This document shows positions 3,234 to 14,869 of a DNA stretch of 38,512 nucleotides, piece by piece. A program made the position numbers and the translations under genes. The notes beneath the pieces were generated by a model. That model had not been told where the DNA came from. It searched no databases and saw nothing but the letters and a program-made list of their open reading frames with translations. Each line of letters starts with the position of its first letter. Position 1 is the stretch's first letter. This stretch comes from Tannerella sp. (GTDB taxonomy: Bacteria > Bacteroidota > Bacteroidia > Bacteroidales > Tannerellaceae): assembly GCA_031257565.1 (NCBI GenBank), contig JAIROL010000100.1, forward strand, positions 1-38,512, given 5' to 3'.

Positions 3234-4064
3234 ATGGCGAAGTTACGTTTTTTTAGTCTGGCCAGTGGTAGCAGCGGTAATTGTTATTACTTAGGAACCT
3301 CTTCTTTCGGTATTTTGATAGACGCCGGAATAGGAGTGCGTCAGATAAAGAAAATATTAAAAGAACGCGGGATTGAATTTGAAAAAATACAGGCCATATT
3401 AGTAACCCATGATCACGCGGATCATATAAAGTCTGTAGGTTGTCTTGGAGAAACGCTTAACATTCCCGTATATGCGACGGAACTGGTACATGCCGGAATC
3501 CGTAGAAGCCGTTATGTAGAAGAGGTTTTAGTACAATGTCGTCGCGTAGTGGAAAAGGAGATTCCCTTTTTCATACGGGATTTCAAAATTACGGCATTTG
3601 AGGCGCCTCACGATAGTAGCGATAATGTTGGCTATTCAATAGAATATGGAGACCGGACGTTTGTTGTCGTAACAGACGTGGGGCATATAACCGATACTGT
3701 TCGTAACTATGTTTGTCGGGCAAACCATTTGGTAATTGAGGCAAATTATGATGAAGAGATGCTGCAATCCGGTTCGTATCCGGTCTTTTTAAAGGAACGG
3801 GTCTCCAGCCGGTCCGGTCATTTGAGTAATCGTGATGCTGCGGAGTTTCTGGCGACAAATTATACGCCGGCGCTTAAAGATATTTGGTTGTGTCATTTGA
3901 GCCGTGATAATAATCATCCGGAATTGGCTTATAAAACAGTTGATCTCCGTTTGTTTCAGGAAGGAATAAGGGTGGGAAAGGACGTGTCGCTTGTAACGCT
4001 GAAACGAATGACTCCATCTGAAGTGTATGAGTTTGACGTAAAAGAGGCGGATGGTTTATCATGA
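3234..4064 (+). CDS. YycJ/WalJ-like MBL-fold metallo-hydrolase
   Basis: 276 aa, the normal length for the family. The N-terminus FFSLASGSSGNCYYL is the YycJ signature. The metal-binding motif THDHADH sits near residue 60, and later ligand candidates are in EAPHDSSDNVGY, VVVTDVGH and the C-terminal LCHLSRDNNHPE. YycJ proteins are metallo-beta-lactamase-fold nucleases or hydrolases; in Firmicutes they accompany WalKR and have been linked to cell division and DNA repair. No two-component genes are nearby here, so only the biochemical class is supported. Start ATG 3234 follows a good promoter by about 40 nt. Confidence 0.88.
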   Translation: MAKLRFFSLASGSSGNCYYLGTSSFGILIDAGIGVRQIKKILKERGIEFEKIQAILVTHDHADHIKSVGCLGETLNIPVYATELVHAGIRRSRYVEEVLVQCRRVVEKEIPFFIRDFKITAFEAPHDSSDNVGYSIEYGDRTFVVVTDVGHITDTVRNYVCRANHLVIEANYDEEMLQSGSYPVFLKERVSSRSGHLSNRDAAEFLATNYTPALKDIWLCHLSRDNNHPELAYKTVDLRLFQEGIRVGKDVSLVTLKRMTPSEVYEFDVKEADGLS

Positions 4065-4225
4065 TCCTTCAACCCGCATTGCAGCAGATCGGCGATATTT
4101 TCATAAAGATAACTACTTCTATGATTTTAACGGTGTTGCGGCTAATGGAAACAAACAAATTTGTTTCTCTTTTGAAACCAAAAAGCGGAAAAAGGCTGTC
4201 ATTGCATTTGCATTTATTGATATAG
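4061..4225 (+). CDS. Possible 54-aa hypothetical ORF overlapping the YycJ stop
   Basis: An ATG at 4061 overlaps the upstream stop in an ATGA arrangement, the same coupling seen at real junctions in this window. The product begins MILQPALQQIGDIFIK and ends with a His/Leu-rich tail. It has no recognised domain. It could be the surviving front part of a longer membrane or regulatory gene that has decayed; the following 280 bases show no continuation in any frame. Evidence is limited to the overlap and an open frame. Confidence 0.25.
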   Translation: MILQPALQQIGDIFIKITTSMILTVLRLMETNKFVSLLKPKSGKRLSLHLHLLI

Positions 4226-4505
4226 TTTTCAATAAATTAATACAACTCCCAATAAAGTGGAGTTTTCGGACAGACACTAACTATAAAAACGGCGCTCACT
4301 CTGCTATATCAACTCGAACAGGCAACAAAAGAGTTAGTCGCATTTCAAAATAAAATTGAGAATTTGATGGCAGGATACGAACGCAAGTATCTGATAAAGG
4401 ATGAGTAGTAGAAAGGTGCGACATCTAAAAAAAGATATTTTTTTCACGTTTTGTGCGAAAATTACAAGAAAAAACAGTAACTTTGCAGCGTATTACAAAT
4501 AATTT
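4226..4505 (+). other. Gap with hairpins and an orphan open frame
   Basis: No recognisable gene. A 6-bp inverted repeat (AACTCC 4244-4249, GGAGTT 4259-4264) and, just before the gap, an AT-rich palindrome (4148-4167, gaaacaaa/tttgtttc) may act as weak terminators. One + frame is open from about 4254 to the stop at 4406-4408 and ends with a helical, charged segment LEQATKELVAFQNKIENLMA; it has no start codon at its front and looks like the tail of a lost gene. Confidence 0.35.
4478..4485 (+). promoter_or_regulatory. -7 promoter element of the restriction island
   Basis: TAACTTTG matches the TAnnTTTG consensus. A TTTG lies 24 nt upstream (4450-4453), somewhat far for a -33 box. The start codon of hsdM is 20 nt downstream, so the 5' leader is very short. 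This is the only clear promoter seen for the six-gene run. Confidence 0.55.
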
Positions 4506-6329
4506 ATGGGCAATCAAATATACAATCAGATAGTATGTTTCATTTGGGGAATTGCCGATGACTGTCTTTTTAATGTTTATGTGAGAGGTAAATATCGCGA
4601 TGTGATATTGCCTATGACTGTCATTCGACGGTTGGATGCCGTTTTGGAAGACACCAAAGACGATGTGCTGAAAATGAAAGCGACACTCGACAAGGCAGGT
4701 ATTGTGAACCAAGACGAGGCATTGTGCAATGTCGCCAAACAGTCGTTTTGCAACAAATCGCCATTCCGACTGAAAGACCTCACAAGCCGTGCTACACCTC
4801 AAAAACTGAAAACGGATTTTATCGCTTATCTGGATGGTTTTTCGCCAAATGTGCAGGAAATTCTCGAAAAATTCAAGTTTCGCAACCAGATAGACACACT
4901 TGTCGAAGCCGACCGTCTTGGTGCGATAATAGAAAAATTTGTGTCGCCCGCAATCAACGTTTCGCCTGTTCCCGTGCTTAACGATGTAGGCGAAGTGAAA
5001 CTTCCCGCTCTCGATAATCACACTATGGGGACGATTTTTGAGGAATTGATTCGCCGTTTCAATGAGGAAAACAACGAAGAAGCGGGTGAACACTTTACCC
5101 CTCGCGACGTGGTGGAACTTATGGCTGACCTGATTTTTATGCCCATCGCCGACAAAATCAAAGACAACACCTATTCGGTTTATGACGGCGCAAGCGGTAC
5201 CGGCGGTATGCTGACTGTTTTGCAAGAACGGCTCTTGCTCCTCGCTCAAAAGAAAAACAAAAAAGTTTCAATTCATCTCTTTGGGCAGGAAATCAATCCC
5301 GAAACATACGCCATCACAAAAGCCGATATGTTGCTCAAAGGCGACGGCGGCGAAGCCGATCATATCGCGTATGGTTCAACACTTTCTGCCGATGCCTTCT
5401 CTCGTCGTCAGTTCGATTTTATGCTTTCCAACCCACCTTATGGCGTTTCGTGGAAAATAGACGCCGAGAAACTTGGAGGCAAAAAAGGAATAACAGATAC
5501 CCGTTTTGTAACGCAATTTGCCGACGATGCAGAATTTCAGATGATTCCGCGCGTGAGTGACGGACAGTTGCTTTTCTTGCTCAACAATGCGGCGAAGATG
5601 AAAGAGACGACCGAACTCGGCAGCCGCATAGCCGAAGTTCACAACGGCTCGTCGCTTTTTACGGGCGACGCAGGGCAGGGCGAAAGCAACGCCCGCCGCT
5701 ACCTGATTGAACGCGACCTCGTGGAAGCGATTATCGCTTTGCCCGAAAATATGTTTTACAACACGGGTATTGCAACGTATATCTGGATTTTAAGCAACCG
5801 CAAGGAAGAACGCCGAAAGGGGAAAATCCAACTGATTGACGCCACCGAACTGAAATTGCCGTTGCGAAAAAATCTCGGAAAGAAAAACTGCGAACTGACC
5901 ACCGAAATTCGCAAGCAAATTATGGATTTATTCCTTGATTTTAAGGAAACTGAAAACTGTAAGATTTTCAATAACAGCGACTTTGGCTATTGGAAAATTA
6001 CAGTCCAGCGTCCTTTGCTCGACGACGACGGCAAACTACTAACTGACCGTAAAGGCAACCGGCAGGCAGACCGAGAGTTGACCGACACGGAACAAATTCC
6101 ACTCAACTACGAAGGCGGGATTAAGGCATTTTTCAAAAAAGAAGTTTTGCCATATGCACCCGACGCTTGGATTGACGAAAAGAAAACGCAAATCGGCTAC
6201 GAGATAAGTTTCACGAAACATTTCTACAAGCCCGTTCAACTGCGCACACTCTCTGAAATCGTCGCCGATATTCGCACTTTGGAACAGGAAACAGACGGAT
6301 TATTGGATGAAATATTAAACAGCATATAA
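4506..6329 (+). CDS. hsdM: Type I restriction-modification DNA methyltransferase subunit M
   Basis: 607 aa. An N-terminal helical HsdM_N domain (about 1-150) is followed by the N6-adenine methyltransferase domain: HFTPRDVVELM near residue 196, SAM-binding motif YDGASGTGGML near 225, FGQEINPETYAI, and catalytic NPPY (SNPPYGVSW) near residue 309. The C-terminal part includes the common ALPENMFYNTGIATYIW motif. HsdM with HsdS methylates adenines in the recognition site and protects the host; with HsdR it forms the restriction complex. First gene of the operon, 20 nt behind a -7 element, 10 nt before the next ORF. All catalytic motifs are present. Confidence 0.96.
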   Translation: MGNQIYNQIVCFIWGIADDCLFNVYVRGKYRDVILPMTVIRRLDAVLEDTKDDVLKMKATLDKAGIVNQDEALCNVAKQSFCNKSPFRLKDLTSRATPQKLKTDFIAYLDGFSPNVQEILEKFKFRNQIDTLVEADRLGAIIEKFVSPAINVSPVPVLNDVGEVKLPALDNHTMGTIFEELIRRFNEENNEEAGEHFTPRDVVELMADLIFMPIADKIKDNTYSVYDGASGTGGMLTVLQERLLLLAQKKNKKVSIHLFGQEINPETYAITKADMLLKGDGGEADHIAYGSTLSADAFSRRQFDFMLSNPPYGVSWKIDAEKLGGKKGITDTRFVTQFADDAEFQMIPRVSDGQLLFLLNNAAKMKETTELGSRIAEVHNGSSLFTGDAGQGESNARRYLIERDLVEAIIALPENMFYNTGIATYIWILSNRKEERRKGKIQLIDATELKLPLRKNLGKKNCELTTEIRKQIMDLFLDFKETENCKIFNNSDFGYWKITVQRPLLDDDGKLLTDRKGNRQADRELTDTEQIPLNYEGGIKAFFKKEVLPYAPDAWIDEKKTQIGYEISFTKHFYKPVQLRTLSEIVADIRTLEQETDGLLDEILNSI

Positions 6330-6339
6330 TCAAAGAGAT

Positions 6340-7494
6340 ATGAATGTAGACGGACAACACAGCGACGACTACAGGCAATGGCTGACCGATTTGAAATTGC
6401 GCATCCGTCACTCGCAAATCAAAGCGGCTGTTAAGGTGAACACCGAATTGCTTCATCTGTACTGGGATTTGGGTAAGGACATTGCTACCCGACAACTCGA
6501 CGCCGCATGGGGTAGCGGCTTCTTCGAACAGTTGAGCAGAGACTTGCGCAGCGAGTTCCCGCATTTGAAGGGTTTCTCTGTAGTGAATTTGACCTACTGC
6601 AAACGATTTTATTTGTTTTATAGTGAAGATGTTAAAATTTTCCAGCAACTTGCCAGAAAATTGCACCAACCTGGTGAAGAATTTATTCACCAAGTTGGTG
6701 AAGAATTACAACCGACAGTTAATCAGCATAATATAATTTTTCGGCAAGTTGCTGAAGAATTTGAGAGCCATCCGATTTCTCAAATCCCGTGGCGTCATCA
6801 TGTTGAAATCTTTACCAAGTGTAAAACGCTCAAAGAAGCGCTGTTTTACGTACAAAAAACGATAGAAAACGGATGGAGCCGCGCCGTGCTGATGAATTTC
6901 ATAGAGGCGGATTTGTACGCTGCGCAGGGCAAGGCGCTCACTAACTTTTCGCGCTTACTGCCCGCTCCGCAAAGCGACCTTGCCAACGAAATCATCAAAG
7001 ACCCATACAACTTCGATTTTATCACCCTGACCGAGCCATACCGTGAGCGCGAACTGGAAGACGCTCTAACAGAGAACATTACTAAGTTTCTCGTCGAACT
7101 TGGGCAGGGCTTTGCATACGTCGGGCGGCAGGTACCGGTCAAAATCGGTGATACAGAGCGGTTTATAGACCTACTGTTCTATCATCTGGAACTGCGCTGC
7201 TTCGTAGTCATCGAACTGAAAGCCACCAAGTTTGAAGCCGAATATACAGGGAAACTCGGTTTGTACGTTTCCGCCATCAACCATCAGCGCAAGAAGCCGA
7301 TCGACAATCCAACCCTTGGTATGATTATCTGCAAGACAAAGGATAACATCGAAGTGGAATACTCGCTCGAAAGCAGCAGCCAACCCATAGGCGTTTCGGA
7401 GTACAAACTGTCGAAACTCCTCCCCGACAACTACAAATCCGTACTGCCAAGTATCGAAGAGATTGAAGCAGGATTAAAATCAATCAAAAACTGA
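6340..7494 (+). CDS. YhcG/DUF1016 family PD-(D/E)xK nuclease
   Basis: 384 aa. The N-terminal DUF1016_N domain (about 8-130) has the typical LLHLYWDLGKDI and LKGFSVVNLTYCKRFY. A linker holding three related segments (HQPGEEF, HQVGEEL, RQVAEEF) follows. The C-terminal nuclease domain shows IPWRHHVEIFTKCK, AVLMNFIEADLY, then RFIDLLFYHLELRCFVVIEL, whose Asp and the IELKA motif form the PD-(D/E)xK site. YhcG-type proteins occur in many defence and mobile loci, including type I restriction operons; a DNA-cutting role is expected but the target is unknown. Gaps of 10 nt to hsdM and 5 nt to hsdS make it a real operon member rather than a neighbour by chance. Confidence 0.92.
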   Translation: MNVDGQHSDDYRQWLTDLKLRIRHSQIKAAVKVNTELLHLYWDLGKDIATRQLDAAWGSGFFEQLSRDLRSEFPHLKGFSVVNLTYCKRFYLFYSEDVKIFQQLARKLHQPGEEFIHQVGEELQPTVNQHNIIFRQVAEEFESHPISQIPWRHHVEIFTKCKTLKEALFYVQKTIENGWSRAVLMNFIEADLYAAQGKALTNFSRLLPAPQSDLANEIIKDPYNFDFITLTEPYRERELEDALTENITKFLVELGQGFAYVGRQVPVKIGDTERFIDLLFYHLELRCFVVIELKATKFEAEYTGKLGLYVSAINHQRKKPIDNPTLGMIICKTKDNIEVEYSLESSSQPIGVSEYKLSKLLPDNYKSVLPSIEEIEAGLKSIKN

Positions 7495-7499
7495 AAGCA

Positions 7500-9383
7500 A
7501 TGAAACCATACCCGAAATATAAAGCAACTAATATCCCTTGGCTGACAGAAGCGCCCGATGATTGGGAAGTGTGGAAAATCAAATATCTGTTTTCTGAAAG
7601 GATAGAAAAAGGTTTTCCCGATGAGCCATTGTTAGTCGCTTCGCAAAATATGGGCGTTGTTCCTAAGGAAGTTTATGGGAACAGAACGGTTGAGGCAATG
7701 AAAGATTTGCATTTGCTGAAATTAGTCGAAATCGGTGATTTTGTGATTAGTTTGCGTTCATTTCAAGGTGGAATTGAATATGCTTATTATCGTGGAATTA
7801 TCAGTCCTGCATATACCGTAATGAAACAAAATACATTTATTGATGCAGGATATTTCCGTTATCTTGCTAAATCAAAATTGTTTATTGAACTTTTACAAAC
7901 TTGCGTAACCGGTATTCGCGAAGGGCAAAACATTGATTATAACAGATTGAAAAACGAATTTATTCCTCTTCCCCCGCTTTCCGTCCAATCCCGCATTGTC
8001 AGTTATTTAGACGCCAAAGTATCGTCAATCAACAAACTGATTGAGGCAAAGAAACGGCAGGTGGAGTTGCTCAAAGAGGAACTATATACCTACTTGTTTT
8101 CTGAAAAAGGGGATATTGAATCTTTGGGCTATTGGGATAATTGCTTCCCTCAACATTGGGAATCTACAACTGTAAAACGCATATTTCACGAAACTTCCGA
8201 CAAGGGTTATACAGACAAAGAGTTACTTGCGGTAACACAAGACAGAGGTGTGCTTTATAAAAATGACTGTTCAGAAAACTTTGTTTCGCCAAGTGGGGAT
8301 TATTCCTCACAAAAACTTGTTTTGCCACACGATTTTATCATTAGTTTGCGCTCTTTTCAGGGTGGAATAGAGGCATCTCTCATTAAGGGTTTAGTTTCGC
8401 CTGCTTATACAGTCTTTGCTATGAACGACTATAACGAGTTGTTGTTTATCTATTACAGGTATCTGTTTAAAACAAAACCATTTATTGCTTTCTTAAATAC
8501 ACTTGTTGCAGATACAAGAGATGGGAAAAAGATTGGATTTAAGGAATTTAGAGGTTTTTATATGCCTGTACCACCTGTCAGCCATCTTGAAAAAATCAAA
8601 GAATTGTCTTTGCGGTTGGATGTTCTTGTTATACAAGTAGAAAAATACCTGCAATTATTGACAGAGTATAAGATAAGTTTAATAAGTGATGTTGTAACAG
8701 GGAAAGTAGAAGTTCAAGAGGTAGCATTACAACAAAAGATTGAGAGCGAGGTTGTTCTGCCGAAAATAATCGAATTAGCGCCCAAGCAAAGCAAGACACA
8801 CAGCAAAGGTTATGATGATGCCGTAATTTTAGCAACACTTGTCAATGCTTTCGGGACAGAAGAATATCCTTTTACCGCTTTCGATTGTCAAAAATTCCCC
8901 TACTTGTTGCATCGGTATATCGAAGGAGTGGCGGCAAATTACAGCAAGTTTGCCGCCGGACCATATAATCCGCTTCTTAAATATCAAACGGCTCGACCTA
9001 TTGCTTTGAAAAAGAAGTATATTCGTGAACATACAGGGCGTTACAAAGGTTTGGTTACAGACGCAAATGTTCAAGAGGCAGTCGGTTATTTCACGGCTTG
9101 GTATGGGAATGAGCCGCTTGAATGGATTAAACAGTTTCGTTTTATATCAAACAGAAAAAATGAATTGGAACTGTTGACAACCGTTGATATGGCAATCGTT
9201 GATTTGCAAAATGACAATATGTCTGTTACAATGCAATCTATCAAAGATTTAATCAAAGGCAGCCCTGTTTGGAAAGATAAACTGAAACGCCCAATCTTTT
9301 CGGACGACAATATTGAGAGAGCAATCAAATGGAGTTATAAACTGTTTGGAACACAAAATAAGGAAGTCGGAAAAAAATTATGA
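7500..9383 (+). CDS. hsdS: Type I restriction-modification specificity subunit with C-terminal extension
   Basis: 627 aa; classical HsdS proteins have about 400-450. Two target-recognition domains are seen (about residues 18-165 and 215-375), each followed by a conserved segment (LPPLSVQSRIVSYLD; VPPVSHLEKIKELS) and a helical spacer. The two are clearly homologous: FVISLRSFQGGIE with SPAYTV in the first, FIISLRSFQGGIE with SPAYTV in the second. Residues from about 430 onward form another domain with LVNAFGTEEYPFTAF, KFPYLLHRYI and FAAGPYNPLLKY, which resembles the Panacea/SocA (DUF4065) type or other HsdS tails. The subunit reads the DNA target for both HsdM and HsdR. Stop overlaps the start of the Fic gene (ATGA). 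Confidence 0.93.
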   Translation: MKPYPKYKATNIPWLTEAPDDWEVWKIKYLFSERIEKGFPDEPLLVASQNMGVVPKEVYGNRTVEAMKDLHLLKLVEIGDFVISLRSFQGGIEYAYYRGIISPAYTVMKQNTFIDAGYFRYLAKSKLFIELLQTCVTGIREGQNIDYNRLKNEFIPLPPLSVQSRIVSYLDAKVSSINKLIEAKKRQVELLKEELYTYLFSEKGDIESLGYWDNCFPQHWESTTVKRIFHETSDKGYTDKELLAVTQDRGVLYKNDCSENFVSPSGDYSSQKLVLPHDFIISLRSFQGGIEASLIKGLVSPAYTVFAMNDYNELLFIYYRYLFKTKPFIAFLNTLVADTRDGKKIGFKEFRGFYMPVPPVSHLEKIKELSLRLDVLVIQVEKYLQLLTEYKISLISDVVTGKVEVQEVALQQKIESEVVLPKIIELAPKQSKTHSKGYDDAVILATLVNAFGTEEYPFTAFDCQKFPYLLHRYIEGVAANYSKFAAGPYNPLLKYQTARPIALKKKYIREHTGRYKGLVTDANVQEAVGYFTAWYGNEPLEWIKQFRFISNRKNELELLTTVDMAIVDLQNDNMSVTMQSIKDLIKGSPVWKDKLKRPIFSDDNIERAIKWSYKLFGTQNKEVGKKL

Positions 9384-10252
9384 GTAAAAAATCAATAAGA
9401 TTCTTTGAGAATAAAGAAGTTCGTGCCATTTGGGACGACGACGGCAACAAATGGTGGTTTAATGTTATTGATATTGTTGCCGTGCTTAACGAGCAGGACG
9501 ATTATACAAAGGCAAACAACTACTGGCGCTGGTTGAAACGAAAACTAAAATCAGAGAGCAATCAACTTGTGAGCGCCACTCACGGTTTCAGGTTTATTGC
9601 AGCAGACGGGAAAATGCGCCTTGCCGATTGCCTTGACAGCGAAGGAATTATGGAACTTGCCAAGAATTTTCCCAATACCAAAGCGATGAAGTTTCTTGAT
9701 TGGTTTACATACAGCGACAACACCATTGACGGGCAAAGCAAAAAGAAAGCATATACCTTTTGGGAGAGCAATCTGATTGGCAGCGCGGAAGTAGGCAGCG
9801 TTAAGGCGCTGCAAAAAATTCACGCCTACATTTTCGGCGGGCTTTACGATTTCGCCGGACAAATCCGCAACAAAAACATCAGCAAAGGCGGATTCACGTT
9901 TGCACCCTGCCAGCATTTTCATATCACTTTGCCTACTATTGAACGGATGCCCGAAACCACTTTCGACGAAATTGTGGATAAATACGTGGAAATGAATGTG
10001 GCGCACCCTTTTATGGAAGGCAACGGCAGAAGTACGCGAATTTGGCTTGATTTAATATTCAGGCGGAGTTTGAAAAAGTGCATCGATTGGAGCAAAATCA
10101 ATAAAAACGATTATTTGAGCGCAATGGTTGAAAGCCATACCGACAGCACCAAAATCAGACAACTCTTGCAGGGCGCATTAACCAACAAAATCCACGACCG
10201 TGAAATTTTTATGAAAGGTATCGACTATTCTTATTATTACGAGGAAAACTAA
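9380..10252 (+). CDS. Bro-N domain fused to a class III-type Fic AMP-transferase
   Basis: 290 aa. Residues 1-115 are a Bro-N/RhuM-like domain (IRFFENKEVRAIWDDDGNKW, FIAADGKMRLADCLDSEGIM), common beside type I restriction genes in Bacteroidota. Residues about 118-290 are a Fic domain closest in outline to NmFic: IDGQSKKKAYTFWESNLI, IFGGLYDFAGQIRN, the flap SKGGFTFAP and the canonical motif HPFMEGNGRSTR with catalytic His. The C-terminus carries SYYYEE (Ser284...Glu288), matching the (S/T)xxxE inhibitory motif of class III Fic proteins, except that G/N after Glu is replaced by Glu. Fic enzymes transfer AMP to proteins such as GyrB. It overlaps hsdS by 4 nt and precedes hsdR by 2 nt. Confidence 0.9.
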   Translation: MSKKSIRFFENKEVRAIWDDDGNKWWFNVIDIVAVLNEQDDYTKANNYWRWLKRKLKSESNQLVSATHGFRFIAADGKMRLADCLDSEGIMELAKNFPNTKAMKFLDWFTYSDNTIDGQSKKKAYTFWESNLIGSAEVGSVKALQKIHAYIFGGLYDFAGQIRNKNISKGGFTFAPCQHFHITLPTIERMPETTFDEIVDKYVEMNVAHPFMEGNGRSTRIWLDLIFRRSLKKCIDWSKINKNDYLSAMVESHTDSTKIRQLLQGALTNKIHDREIFMKGIDYSYYYEEN

Positions 10253-10254
10253 AA

Positions 10255-13182
10255 ATGAATACAACAAACGCCAACGAATCCGGCTTTGAAGCCCTGATAG
10301 TAAAGTATCTCGTGGAGCATAACGGCTACGAACAGGGCGCAAATGCCGATTATAACCGCGAATACGCGACTGACGAAACGCGACTGTTCCGCTTTCTGAC
10401 CGAAACGCAACCACGTCAGGTTGAGCAACTTGGCATTACCGACAGCGACCATAAACGCAACGCTTTTCTCATTCGTTTACAGGGCGAGATTGCCAAACGC
10501 GGTATTGTTGATGTGTTGCGCAAGGGTATAAAAATCTATCCTGCCAATGTGATAATGTTTTATCAAACACCTTCTGAAAAAAATACGGCAGCAAAAGCGA
10601 TGTTCGATAAAAATATTTTCACTGTTACACGACAATTGCAATATTCAAAAGACAATACACGTCTTGCGCTCGATTTGTGTATTTTCATCAACGGCTTGCC
10701 TGTGATAACCTGCGAACTCAAAAATCAACTGACCAAGCAGGACGTAGAAGATGCTGTATATCAATATAAAACCGATAGAGACCCGAAAGAATTGCTGTTT
10801 CAGTTCAAACGCTGTATAGTGCATTTTGCCATTGACGATGCGCAGATAAAATTCTGTACTCGGCTTGCCGGAAAATCCTCGTGGTTTCTGCCCTTCAATC
10901 GCGGCTATAACGATGGTGCAGGTAACCCGCCCAATCTCGACGGCATTATGACCGATTATCTTTGGAAAGAAACGCTTACCAAAACTTCGCTTGCCAACAT
11001 CATCGAAAATTATGCGCAGGTAGTAGAAGAAAAAGACGAAGATACAGGTAAAAAGAAAGAAAAACAGATTTTTCCACGCTATCATCAGTTATCGGTTGTG
11101 AGACAATTGCTTGCCGATGTTGCTGAAAAAGGCGTTGGACAGCGGTATCTCATACAGCACAGCGCAGGCAGCGGCAAATCGAATTCTATCGCGTGGTTGG
11201 CTCATCAGTTGGTCGGGCTGGAAAAAGGAGGCAACAGTGTGATTGATTCGGTGATAGTTGTAACAGACCGAATAAACCTCGATAAACAGATTGCTGCCAC
11301 GATAAGACAATTTATGCAGGTATCAAATACTGTTGCAAAGGCAGAAAATTCGGGTGATTTGAAAAAATACATCAAGGAAGGAAAGAAAATCATTATTTCA
11401 ACGGTACAAAAATTTCCGTTTATCCTTAACGATATTGGCACATCGCACAAGAACAGCCGTTTTGCCATTATCATCGACGAGGCACACAGCAGCCAGAGCG
11501 GTAGAATGTCGGCGGCGATGAATACTGCGCTCGGCGGCGATTACGACCCCAACGAAGATACTGAAGACCGCATCATTCGATTGATGGAAGGGCGCAAAAT
11601 GCTCAACAATGCGAGTTATTTTGCTTTTACAGCAACGCCCAAAAACAAAACATTGGAAATTTTCGGCATACCCGACAAACAATCCGACGGCTCGGCGCGA
11701 CACCTGCCTTTTCACAACTATTCGATGAAACAGGCTATTGAAGAAGGTTTTATACTTGATGTGCTAAAATATTTTACCCCGATAAAGAGTTACTACAAAT
11801 TAGCAAAAACAATAGAAGACAACCCGCCGTTCGACAAGAAAAAGGCGCAAAAGAAACTGCGCCGTTTCGTTGAAAGCGACGAGTTTGCCATTGCCACAAA
11901 AGCCGATATTATGGTAGAACATTTTCATACAAACGTAATATCAAAAATTGGCAGCACGGCACGTGCAATGGTCGTTACAGGTGGTATTGAGCGGGCTATT
12001 GAATATTATTACGCTATCTGTCAGTGTCTTGAAGCAAGGAAAAGTCAATGCAAAGCGATCATTGCTTTCAGCGGCGACAAAGAATATGGCGGACAGATAC
12101 TTAACGAGGCATCAATCAACGGTTTTGCAAGCAATTTGATTGAGAAAAATTTCAGAAAAGACCCTTATCGCTTTCTTGTTGTGGCAGATAAATTTCAGAC
12201 AGGATACGACGAGCCGCTTCTGCATACAATGTATGTGGATAAAATTCTTTCCGACATAAAAGCCGTACAGACCTTGTCGCGCCTGAATCGTGCTGCCCCG
12301 CAAAAGTTTGATACATTCGTACTTGACTTTGCCAATGAGCCGGACGATATTAAAAAAGCGTTTGAACGCTATTATCGAACAACAATTCTTTCGGGCGAAA
12401 CCGACCCGAATAAACTCTACGACCTGATTTCCGATATGGAACAGGCACAGGTTTATACTACTGCACAGGTTGAGCAGTTTGTTGAACTTTACCTGAACGG
12501 CGCAGAACGTTCGCTGCTCGACCCGATACTCGCTGCTTGTGTCGCTCTTTACAAAGCATTAGACGAAGAAGGGCAGGTTGTATTTAAGAGCGCGGCAAAA
12601 GCCTTTGTGCGCACTTATGGTTTTCTTGGGGCAATTTTGCCGTTTGGTAATGTGGAATGGGAAAAACTGTCGATTTTTCTGAATTTGTTGTTGCCTAAAC
12701 TGCCGTCGCCACAAGAAGAAGACTTGTCAAAAGGAATCTTGGATGCCATAGACCTCGACAGTTACAGAGTAGAGGCACGCACCCGAATTTCCATTCAACT
12801 CGAAGATGCGAACGCTACGGTAGAGCCGGCGCCGATTAGTTCGGGCAAAGGCAAAGCAGAACCTGAAATGGATTTACTGACTAACATACTGACAAAATTC
12901 AACGAACTGTTTGGTAATATTGAATGGAAAGACGCCGACAATGTGCGCCGTCAGATAGCCGAAATTCCCGCAATGGTGGCGAAAGACGAAAAATATCAAA
13001 ACGCAGCGCGCAATTCCGACCGCCAAAACGCCCGCATGGAAAGCGACCGAGTGCTTCAACAGGTAATTTTGAGCATTATGGCTGACAATATGGAACTGTT
13101 CAAGCAATTCAACGACAATCCCTCGTTCAAAAGATGGCTGGCAGATATGGTGTTTGATGTAACGTATGAGAAGAATTTATGA
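10255..13182 (+). CDS. hsdR: Type I restriction endonuclease subunit R
   Basis: 975 aa. The N-terminal nuclease domain has LALDLCIFINGLPVITCELK near residue 150 (D...ExK). The SF2 motor follows: Walker A in SAGSGKSNSIAW near 305, DEAH in IIDEAHSSQSGRMS near 408, motif III FTATPKNKT near 458, and FQTGYDEPLLHTMYVDK then QTLSRLNRAAPQK as later helicase motifs. The C-terminal part is helical and would bind the methylase core. HsdR translocates DNA in an ATP-dependent way and cuts far from the recognition site when the site is unmethylated. All motor and nuclease motifs are intact. 2 nt after the Fic gene; its stop overlaps the next start (ATGA, 13179-13182). Confidence 0.97.
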   Translation: MNTTNANESGFEALIVKYLVEHNGYEQGANADYNREYATDETRLFRFLTETQPRQVEQLGITDSDHKRNAFLIRLQGEIAKRGIVDVLRKGIKIYPANVIMFYQTPSEKNTAAKAMFDKNIFTVTRQLQYSKDNTRLALDLCIFINGLPVITCELKNQLTKQDVEDAVYQYKTDRDPKELLFQFKRCIVHFAIDDAQIKFCTRLAGKSSWFLPFNRGYNDGAGNPPNLDGIMTDYLWKETLTKTSLANIIENYAQVVEEKDEDTGKKKEKQIFPRYHQLSVVRQLLADVAEKGVGQRYLIQHSAGSGKSNSIAWLAHQLVGLEKGGNSVIDSVIVVTDRINLDKQIAATIRQFMQVSNTVAKAENSGDLKKYIKEGKKIIISTVQKFPFILNDIGTSHKNSRFAIIIDEAHSSQSGRMSAAMNTALGGDYDPNEDTEDRIIRLMEGRKMLNNASYFAFTATPKNKTLEIFGIPDKQSDGSARHLPFHNYSMKQAIEEGFILDVLKYFTPIKSYYKLAKTIEDNPPFDKKKAQKKLRRFVESDEFAIATKADIMVEHFHTNVISKIGSTARAMVVTGGIERAIEYYYAICQCLEARKSQCKAIIAFSGDKEYGGQILNEASINGFASNLIEKNFRKDPYRFLVVADKFQTGYDEPLLHTMYVDKILSDIKAVQTLSRLNRAAPQKFDTFVLDFANEPDDIKKAFERYYRTTILSGETDPNKLYDLISDMEQAQVYTTAQVEQFVELYLNGAERSLLDPILAACVALYKALDEEGQVVFKSAAKAFVRTYGFLGAILPFGNVEWEKLSIFLNLLLPKLPSPQEEDLSKGILDAIDLDSYRVEARTRISIQLEDANATVEPAPISSGKGKAEPEMDLLTNILTKFNELFGNIEWKDADNVRRQIAEIPAMVAKDEKYQNAARNSDRQNARMESDRVLQQVILSIMADNMELFKQFNDNPSFKRWLADMVFDVTYEKNL

Positions 13183-13907
13183 AAATAGTTGATATAATAG
13201 AAGATAAGATTAAAAAAATCCCCGCAGGACATATTTTTGCCTATACCGATTTTGATATTCAGGTTGAAAAGAAAAATACGGTCGTCAAGACATTGAACAA
13301 TTTTGTGGCAAAAGGGAAAATCGCCAAACTGTCGAAAGGGAAATTCTACAAGCCCGAAACCGGAAAGTTAGGAAAGTTATTACCAACCCAATATCAGGTA
13401 GTAAAAGACCTTATCGAAAAAGATGGCAAGTTAATCGGTTATATGACTTGCTATTCCGTATATAACGAATTGCTGCTTACAACACAAGTCGCAAGTATCA
13501 TTCAGATAGGAACAAACAAATATCGCCGACCGCTGAAACGTGGTAACTATCGTATTTCTTTTGTTTTGCAACCTAATGTGATTACAAAAACAAATTATCG
13601 GCTATTACAAATTCTTGACGCAGTGCGATTTGTGCGCAGTATTCCCGCAACGACGGCTGATGAGGCTTGTCGGCGGCTGATTCAGATATTCAAAGAATTA
13701 TCCCCCGAAGAACAGACAAAAATCGTGAAATTGGCATTGAAATATACCGATTATGTGCGTGCATTATGCGGAGCAATTCTTTCCTTCAACAGCGCCGGTG
13801 AATCGCTTATTGCTATTCTCGACAAATCACTTAATGGAGTTACTACGTACAGATTAGGTATCTCTGAAAAGATTTTGCCAACAAAAGAAAGATGGAGGAT
13901 AATATGA
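13179..13907 (+). CDS. DUF6088-type, AbiEi-like winged-helix protein
   Basis: 242 aa. The N-terminus (GHIFAYTDFDIQVEKKNTVV, then LNNFVAKGKIAKLSKGKFYK) is the DUF6088/AbiEi-like winged helix that precedes antitoxin or abortive-infection regulators. The remainder has SIIQIGTNKYRRPLKRGNY and a helical C-terminal tail. AbiEi proteins are DNA-binding antitoxins paired with AbiEii nucleotidyltransferases; no such partner is present, so its role here may be transcriptional control of the operon or restraint of Fic or the nuclease (inference). It is the last gene of the island and overlaps hsdR. No terminator is obvious in the 120 nt before truA. Confidence 0.75.
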   Translation: MKIVDIIEDKIKKIPAGHIFAYTDFDIQVEKKNTVVKTLNNFVAKGKIAKLSKGKFYKPETGKLGKLLPTQYQVVKDLIEKDGKLIGYMTCYSVYNELLLTTQVASIIQIGTNKYRRPLKRGNYRISFVLQPNVITKTNYRLLQILDAVRFVRSIPATTADEACRRLIQIFKELSPEEQTKIVKLALKYTDYVRALCGAILSFNSAGESLIAILDKSLNGVTTYRLGISEKILPTKERWRII

Positions 13908-14076
13908 ACATACCCGTATTACGTTCTGTCTGCTTTTTACATCCCGCAAACAAGATGCAGAGCGTGATAAATGAAAGAAGATAACAGCGTTTCATCGTAT
14001 TTATTTTTTATAGAAAAGAAATTGTAAATATGTTACTTTATTACATGTGCCTGCGTATATGTCAGAACTTTTATTG

Positions 14077-14084
14077 TATATTTG
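14077..14084 (+). promoter_or_regulatory. -7 promoter element of truA
   Basis: TATATTTG matches TAnnTTTG. Transcription would begin near 14091, which lies inside the longest possible truA frame and therefore excludes the ATG at 14030. No good -33 box is seen. Confidence 0.6.
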
Positions 14085-14110
14085 CACTGCTTAAAAAGGG
14101 AGAGAGAGCC

Positions 14111-14869
14111 GTGAATCGTTATTTTATTTACCTTGCTTATAATGGCACGCGTCATTGTGGCTGGCAGAATCAACCTAACGGGATGAGCGTGCAGCAGCGT
14201 TTGGAGGAAACTCTTTCAAAAGTGTTGCGTCAGGATATATCAATTGTAGGCGCCGGCCGGACAGATGCAGGAGTCCATGCCCGTATGATGGTCGCTCACT
14301 TTGATGTTACGGAGGCGTTGGAAAATACGGCTTTGTTAGTCGGAAAACTTAATAATATGTTATCCAAAGATATTGCAGTATATAAAATTGTTCCTGTGAG
14401 AGAAGACGCTCATGCACGTTTTGGCGCTTTATCGCGTACCTATGAGTATCTGCTTTCGGATCAAAAAAAACCGTTCAATTATGAATATATATACAGGACG
14501 CCGTTACGGAATATGGATTTTAAGGCTATGAATGAAGCATGCGCCGTTTTATTTGATTATGCTGATTTTACCAGTTTCAGTAAATTGCATACAGACGTTA
14601 AGACCAATTATTGTCATATCCGTGAAGCCGGTTGGAAGAAGGTTGGCGATATTTGGGTATTTACAATTAAAGCAGATCGTTTTTTACGAAATATGGTAAG
14701 GGCTATAGTCGGGACTTTGTTTGATGTGGGACGAAGTAAAATTTCGATAGATGATTTCCGGAAGATAATAGAAGCAAAGGACCGGCGCATAGCCGGCATG
14801 TCCGTTCCACCGGAAGGACTTGCCCTGACTGATATTGAATATCCGAATGATATATTTCTTGAGTCGTAG
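14111..14869 (+). CDS. truA: tRNA pseudouridine(38-40) synthase TruA
   Basis: 252 aa from a GTG at 14111. This start is chosen because a purine-rich ribosome site (gggagagagag) lies just before it, the upstream -7 element starts transcription after 14030, and family members begin with RYFIYLAYNGTRHCGWQNQP. The catalytic motif is VGAGRTDAGVHA (Asp nucleophile), followed by FGALSRTYEY and FLRNMVRAIVGT. TruA makes pseudouridine at positions 38-40 of the anticodon arm. The C-terminus VPPEGLALTDIEYP is complete. Its last 22 bases are overlapped by the start of an EamA-like relic. Confidence 0.97.
   Translation: MNRYFIYLAYNGTRHCGWQNQPNGMSVQQRLEETLSKVLRQDISIVGAGRTDAGVHARMMVAHFDVTEALENTALLVGKLNNMLSKDIAVYKIVPVREDAHARFGALSRTYEYLLSDQKKPFNYEYIYRTPLRNMDFKAMNEACAVLFDYADFTSFSKLHTDVKTNYCHIREAGWKKVGDIWVFTIKADRFLRNMVRAIVGTLFDVGRSKISIDDFRKIIEAKDRRIAGMSVPPEGLALTDIEYPNDIFLES

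Follow-up and report, generated by a model that had tools for sequence, protein, structure and literature searches.

In the type I restriction-modification (R-M) family, the HsdM2S complex methylates a bipartite site, and HsdR2M2S uses ATP to cut DNA that lacks this modification. Additional genes within such loci have been described several times. Campylobacter jejuni type I loci carry rlo and mlo genes (Miller 2005, as described in PMC5183652). In the Escherichia coli RptR-RMS-DarTG2-M48 island, DarTG2 lies between hsdS and hsdR, at a site proposed as a hotspot (PMC12255303). R-M neighbourhoods with DOC/Fic and RhuM-like proteins, the RhuM-like domain being often fused to DOC, were published in 2013 together with the idea of a layered or multi-level defence (PMC3710099). 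With respect to the individual parts, the C-terminal domain (CTD) of DarG blocks DarT by imitating ssDNA (PMC11481870), and at least one type I enzyme, EcoKI, tolerates an addition to the C-terminus of its HsdS, in that case GFP (PMC2914225).

We analysed a stretch of 38,512 nucleotides from Tannerella sp., hereafter the window, which carries a type I operon with three additional genes. Accessory defence genes in a type I operon are an arrangement already known; the newly noticed part is an HsdS subunit fused to a DarG-like domain. We consider it probable that the locus is a horizontally acquired type I operon, with exchangeable cargo acting as independent back-ups and with a DarG-derived docking domain on its HsdS. 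As in the rlo/mlo loci, foreign genes lie between and right behind the hsd genes and vary among relatives, but the C. jejuni loci belong to another lineage, and no DarG-like HsdS domain is mentioned for them in the excerpt of PMC5183652 available. The E. coli island resembles the wider family studied here in that its hsdS and hsdR genes enclose a toxin system, and its M48 gene has what we take as a counterpart in a YgjP-like metallopeptidase behind hsdR in two related loci (L083 and L185). It differs in that the window has neither DarT nor a DarG macrodomain, the part resembling the DarG CTD being fused to HsdS (compared with the excerpt of PMC12255303). The neighbourhoods excerpted from PMC3710099 share the multi-level defence idea and a comparable fusion of an N-terminal domain to Fic, but no PrrC/RloC-like HEPN protein was among the six genes of the window.

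The gene order hsdM, YhcG/DUF1016, hsdS, Bro-N::Fic, hsdR and DUF6088, with gaps of 10, 5, −4, 2 and −4 nt, had been claimed in an earlier note made from the DNA alone. ORF coordinates and Pfam matches agree with it: all six ORFs are at the positions claimed, on the + strand (Table 1), with 4-nt overlaps at two of the five junctions. The HsdM, HsdS and HsdR genes occur together with open frames (Pfam, PADLOC). Family matches likewise support the description as a complete type I system with three companions: a Fic AMP-transferase, an AbiEi-like protein with a winged helix and, putatively, a second nuclease. Neither the YhcG nor the DUF6088 protein is covered by an NCBIfam model. Two of the PADLOC assignments have the prefix “PDC”, which we take to mark genes embedded inside other defence systems. 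Embedded defences are the subject of a preprint (Payne 2024, as cited in PMC12255303).

Table 1 Features of the type I operon, its flanks and its candidate promoter in the window.
Feature	Position	Strand	Length	Basis or remark
MBL-fold gene	3234..4064	+		Pfam; left flank of insertion
Candidate −7 element, TAACTTTG	4478..4485	+		Fits TAnnTTTG; 20 nt before hsdM
hsdM	4506..6329	+	607 aa	Pfam HsdM_N + N6_Mtase; PADLOC MTase_I, 801 bits
YhcG/DUF1016, putative PD-(D/E)XK nuclease	6340..7494	+	384 aa	Pfam DUF1016_N + YhcG_C (YhcG_C 207.6 bits); PADLOC PDC-S02; hsdM-hsdS slot
hsdS	7500..9383	+	627 aa	Pfam Methylase_S; two related target-recognition halves + extra C-terminal domain
DarG-CTD-like domain of HsdS, residues ~432–618	8793..9353	+	~187 aa	NF048014 match, profile-profile, alignment A3
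Bro-N::Fic, predicted NmFic-type AMP-transferase	9380..10252	+	290 aa	Pfam Bro-N + Fic; NCBIfam NF046029; PADLOC PDC-S04; HPFMEGNGRSTR + C-terminal SYYYE
hsdR	10255..13182	+	975 aa	Pfam HSDR_N, SWI2/SNF2 (SWI2_SNF2), T1R_D3-like
DUF6088/AbiEi-like protein	13179..13907	+	242 aa	Pfam DUF6088; PADLOC AbiEi; truA is the next gene
truA	14030..14869	+		Pfam; right flank of insertion

The type I operon was inserted between an MBL-fold gene and truA. We recognized truA in 37 of the 41 genomes of the genus and examined the loci of 30. The MBL gene directly adjoins truA, with no hsd genes between them, in six of the 29 other same-genus loci (L240, L245, L246, L249, L266 and L267), and the operon is therefore the inserted part. 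No MBL gene was seen beside truA on the stretch examined in the remaining 23; some of these stretches end near truA (e.g., L241 and L244), and elsewhere truA has another neighbour. A 100-aa ORF at 4051–4353, overlapping the end of the MBL gene and preceding hsdM, may be insertion debris.

The candidate promoter before hsdM fits TAnnTTTG, which we take to be the Bacteroidetes −7 element consensus. The motif is weak alone, since the window contains 46 matches where 39.4 are expected. From this element to position 10957, inside hsdR, the + strand held no further TAnnTTTG. A sigma-70-type scan of 3900–14150 gave 32 sites against 19.0 expected, several of them inside the operon.

HsdS has two target-recognition halves (residues ~1–410), 39% identical over 155 aa, followed by an extra non-HsdS domain that the earlier note had missed. 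Residues 432–610 matched positions 161–336 of the NCBIfam DarG profile NF048014 with an E-value of 5.7e-5, at 22.5 bits against a curated cut-off of 250. The likeness to DarG is thus one of the C-terminal domain type, by homology; the N-terminal macrodomain is lacking and the score lies below the cut-off. Profile-profile comparisons between the HsdS domain and the DarG CTD gave 90.9%, 96.2% and 95.9% (the last with E 5.5e-9) over 154–159 columns, versus 0.1–1.5% for seven other families of the island used as controls. A profile of the HsdS domains alone recovered DarG proteins, one of them beside a DarT gene (L237). Invariant positions common to the HsdS domain and DarG (alignment A3) include K35, Y38, R42, G59-P60, L133-E134, D140 and W161. 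At the level of sequence profiles, the HsdS C-terminal domain is shown to be homologous to the DarT-blocking DarG C-terminal domain (PDB 7yk3 chain B), over the whole domain.

Structure searches added less. The DarG chain of 7yk3 was recovered by a joint HsdS/DarG profile, which itself includes DarG rows; a profile built only from HsdS domains gave no match in PDB, 7yk3 included. Designed TIM barrels, found in PDB with the HsdS domain alone (E 0.002), were dismissed as short low-scoring stretches. The AlphaFold model of the domain was poor (mean pLDDT 50.8). An identity with Panacea was also discarded: 12 HsdS domains reached 2.7% against 10 Panacea proteins (11 loci tried, one without an ORF), and DarG domains reached 68% over 63 columns. 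Net charge, considered as a sign of ssDNA mimicry, ranged from −7 to +10 in 13 HsdS domains and from −9 to +4 in 10 DarG domains, and these ranges were uninformative.

The domain is rare. It was found in 4 of 295 relatives and in 10 of 296 genomes of the phylum, the own genome included in both. The ten phylum matches were six HsdS fusions, a split one (L147), two DarG proteins (L236 and L237) and another protein (L235). A single-sequence search of 198 genomes of the order with the HsdS domain returned the own genome only, a plasmid search found none, and a phage search gave one weak match (E 8e-3). In total 16 type I loci carry the domain, in 14 of them with HsdS and domain in one ORF, although L082 is open at the contig start and L085 has the second half of the domain in another frame. 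The other two are L147 and L084, where the domain alone is visible ahead of hsdR. The 188-aa ORF of L147 was rejected as a stand-alone antitoxin gene: it lies in the same frame as hsdS, behind a stop, and the same-genus locus L150 has a long HsdS, so L147 is better seen as a split gene. Three of the 16 loci are in one genome (G211), and others come from Spirochaetia (L083), a viral contig (L086) and an archaea-labelled bin (L085). The L085 contig was binned as a Nitrososphaerota archaeon, possibly a binning error. The clade with the window domain has members from two phyla, on HsdM/HsdR backgrounds of two very different kinds, and the domain is therefore not tied to one motor subunit.

The literature search, in which scarcely any preprints or subscription journals were covered, gave no report of HsdS fused to a DarG or antitoxin domain in the titles and abstract openings of the matches listed. 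No paper was found on HsdS with Fic and rloF.

We propose that the domain would serve for docking or neutralising. Its most likely source is a darTG cassette between hsdS and hsdR, from which the S subunit would have acquired it long ago; a deletion that began at the end of hsdS and reached into darG would have left the fused gene next to hsdR. The gene after the domain could be read in 15 loci: it was hsdR in ten, the layout that such a deletion would leave, cargo in four (the window, L203, L232 and L234), and unclear in L085. DarTG itself occurs as cargo of Bacteroidota type I operons in three loci: L195 reads S-DarT-DarG-R, whereas L163 and L167 read R-DarT-DarG. In the tree, the 10 DarG domains are all on one side of a long branch, as expected of an old split; this branch does not show a recent deletion, and transfer may have run in either direction. 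The HsdS domain of L150 groups with the L235 protein, apart from the other HsdS domains and on long branches, and there may have been more than one fusion event. HsdS would now use the domain to dock to protein or DNA.

A stronger version is that HsdS proteins of Bacteroidota and Spirochaetota have domesticated the DarG domain, so that the subunit which reads the DNA would also neutralise or sense a toxin, be it DarT or a comparable enzyme that targets DNA. We regard this as unlikely; if true, restriction and toxin control would be combined in one protein. A related reading, to which we give a still smaller chance, is that the restriction system lost its own DarT and acts as a guard, neutralising DarT or a similar ssDNA-modifying toxin of competing islands or phages. 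It would fit the mechanism of the DarG CTD, which inhibits DarT by filling the site where the toxin binds DNA (PMC11481870, excerpt). DarT (PF14487) was found in none of five tested genomes with the HsdS domain, the window’s included, but DarT is patchy and these genomes are 79–99% complete, which makes its absence weak evidence; the test left out G469, G525, G430, G602 and G590. In contrast to DarG, the window domain is joined to HsdS instead of a macrodomain and had no DarT partner in the five genomes. The HsdS fusion would join a restriction enzyme physically to an antitoxin fold whose toxin is apparently absent, and through it one can test directly how toxin systems embedded in a host operon get wired into it.

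Alternatively, the domain could be the antitoxin of a neighbouring cargo toxin, such as the Fic protein whose gene overlaps hsdS by 4 nt. This agrees with the DarG homology, with the direct adjacency in the window and with the Fic genes next to hsdS in L081 and L185. However, hsdR directly follows the domain, with no Fic in view, in L082, L083, L084, L186, L187, L233 and L150 (some on short contigs), no cargo gene was seen common to all 16 loci, and Fic is of the self-inhibited type. We hold this explanation to be very improbable. A dedicated antitoxin of Bro-N::Fic was also dropped as the main reading: among the 16 loci, Bro-N::Fic is beside the domain in the window only, the Fic of L081 and L185 being another one.

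The window Fic scored 258.7 against the cut-off of 230 for the NCBIfam NmFic family NF046029, and its PDB matches included the NmFic structures 5ckl and 3s6a, with 5nv5 as the best. The motif HPFx[D/E]GNGRxxR together with a C-terminal SxxxE is what we take to be the inhibitory motif and class signature of class III Fic (NmFic). Both parts are present in the window protein. Across 32 full-length Bro-N::Fic proteins, the strict catalytic pattern was found in 30 and SYYYE in all 32 tails when these were read directly (28/32 with a narrower scripted tail pattern). SxxxE is followed by E or Q, and by neither G nor N. By these motifs, Bro-N::Fic is predicted to be a self-inhibited NmFic type, from which it differs by the added N-terminal Bro-N.

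The earlier note had read the island as an integrated layered defence. In such a scheme, restriction would be the first line, and the type I enzyme would keep Fic and YhcG silent until a phage blocks it, as a type Ic enzyme does with PrrC. There is precedent in PrrC and in the multi-level proposal for R-M with RhuM-like and DOC proteins (PMC3710099, excerpt), and 8 of the 32 loci, two operons of the own genome among them, have Bro-N::Fic inside or beside an hsd operon. No hsd genes were in view in the other 24, however, with detection limited by three profiles and some short contigs; the 32 loci are the best matches to the window protein plus one plasmid locus, not a random sample. The protein also has its own SxxxE tail, and the nearest relatives of the window lack or replace it. 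The integrated scheme is unlikely in our judgement. The DUF6088 protein, in turn, has hsdR and truA as neighbours and no AbiEii beside it; an AbiEii gene adjoins DUF6088 in the relative L185, unlike in the window, as in an AbiE type IV toxin-antitoxin system.

How far the accessory genes belong to the operon was assessed in its relatives. At E ≤ 1e-100, relatives of HsdR turned up in 20/246 and 68/395 genomes, own included, and 80 stretches around HsdR matches were taken, G054 being already in as L058. Left out were 12 of the 75 non-own match rows from the 395 genomes (nine partial ones and the full-length G337, G549 and G353), plus one place in G123 from the 246. Once loci from other queries had been added and the duplicates L098 and L099 removed, there were 86 loci with an HsdR of at least 850 aa. 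Complete M..S..R operons were readable in 63 of them; in the remaining 23, the locus ran off the contig or no HsdM/HsdS was recognised. A set of 58 operons remained after removal of the window, L041, L056 and L070 (entered only via Fic) and L085 (via the HsdS domain); the split HsdS piece of L147 was not counted as cargo.

In these 58 operons, the M-S slot was filled in 31, the S-R slot in 34 and either of them in 49. Twenty representatives of the 114 cargo ORFs were scanned with Pfam, and 19 had a match at E ≤ 1e-3, one had none; the match of the L139 cargo is below the curated cut-off, and some short “cargo” may be spurious, as ORFs were called mechanically. The families include AlbA/Schlafen, RhuM, PDDEXK_3, GmrSD, M78-HTH, DUF5655, AAA and HNH, DUF4268, RmuC, HerA, HD and SMC. 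Bro-N::Fic was interstitial in one operon (L058). With this turnover, and with a Fic family seen mostly without hsd genes in view, the accessory genes are mostly exchangeable cargo. Unrelated, self-contained defence-type genes would find landing places on either side of hsdS and at the 3′ end of the operon, whose transcription they would then use; in the window these genes would be the YhcG nuclease, the self-inhibited Bro-N::Fic and an orphan regulator resembling AbiEi. Most likely they act as independent back-up effectors and not as obligate subunits.

High turnover and many unrelated families would also be expected if defence genes had gathered by chance, with co-transfer as the only link between the parts. 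We find this somewhat doubtful, since YhcG prefers one slot and tight packing recurs, so that position is not random. Between hsdM and hsdR, YhcG was in the M-S slot in 8/8 cases, compared with 34/98 for other cargo (58 operons, Fisher p 0.0004, an optimistic value because related genomes contribute several operons; four of the eight YhcG are short fragments), and in 10/10 when all 63 operons were counted. Beyond this slot count, YhcG is behind hsdR in L134 and L083, and a nuclease that matches YhcG weakly occupies the S-R slot of L203. Junctions with an inserted gene were at most 20 nt in 142 of 185 cases and exactly −4 in 49 (63 complete operons, window included; distances rest on mechanically called ORF starts). 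Such packing is therefore not special to the window locus. As an acquired operon with exchangeable cargo, the island adds a measured example of type I operons as nested defence islands with preferred slots.

The nearest relatives show which of the three accessory genes are stable. L081, from a Dysgonamonadaceae MAG, has an 88% identical HsdM, a 71% identical YhcG and, before hsdS, a different Fic with a winged helix/HTH; its HsdR ORF is only 223 aa. In L082 (HsdR 78%) and in L084 (HsdR 84%), whose contig starts inside the HsdS domain, nothing lies between hsdS and hsdR, and the M-S slot is outside the view. Downstream of hsdR, L084 has a KAP NTPase and others, and then a DUF6088-type gene 50% identical to that of the window. 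L185 has the order M-Fic-S-R-YgjP-x-AbiEii-DUF6088, with HsdR in two frames. The DUF6088 homologues of L084 and L185 thus lie further downstream, and in the nearest relatives Bro-N::Fic and DUF6088 are absent, replaced or moved. YhcG was kept in L081, the one near relative with a visible M-S slot.

A fixed, co-selected accessory set, as the earlier note had it, therefore fails for two of the three genes, Bro-N::Fic and DUF6088, which vary at close range (L081, L082, L084 and L185). The independent variation that it named as evidence against such a set was found for these two; for YhcG it appears only in the wider family (8/58).

The own genome has a second type I operon (L041, G000:C190), of a different type I system, with the order SIR2-HerA-M-YhcG-S-R-x-Bro-N::Fic, where x is a small gene. 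Its Fic is 80% identical to that of the window and its YhcG only 27%. That L041 again pairs YhcG and Bro-N::Fic could hint at a real cooperation of the two.

Some minor features were recognized in the DNA itself. DNA-repeat and Rfam scans gave nothing bearing on the island. The two HsdS halves share a stretch 85% identical over 41 nt (7737–7777 and 8331–8371), so the two half-sites of the HsdS target may be alike. Inside the YhcG gene (6659–6761) there are three imperfect 25-nt copies, as short direct repeats. A gene for a protein of 231–240 aa is present at or near the 3′ end of hsdR in L203, L232, L233, L083, L185 and L186; the two tested, from L083 and L185, matched a YgjP-like metallopeptidase, and the others are alike at the start.
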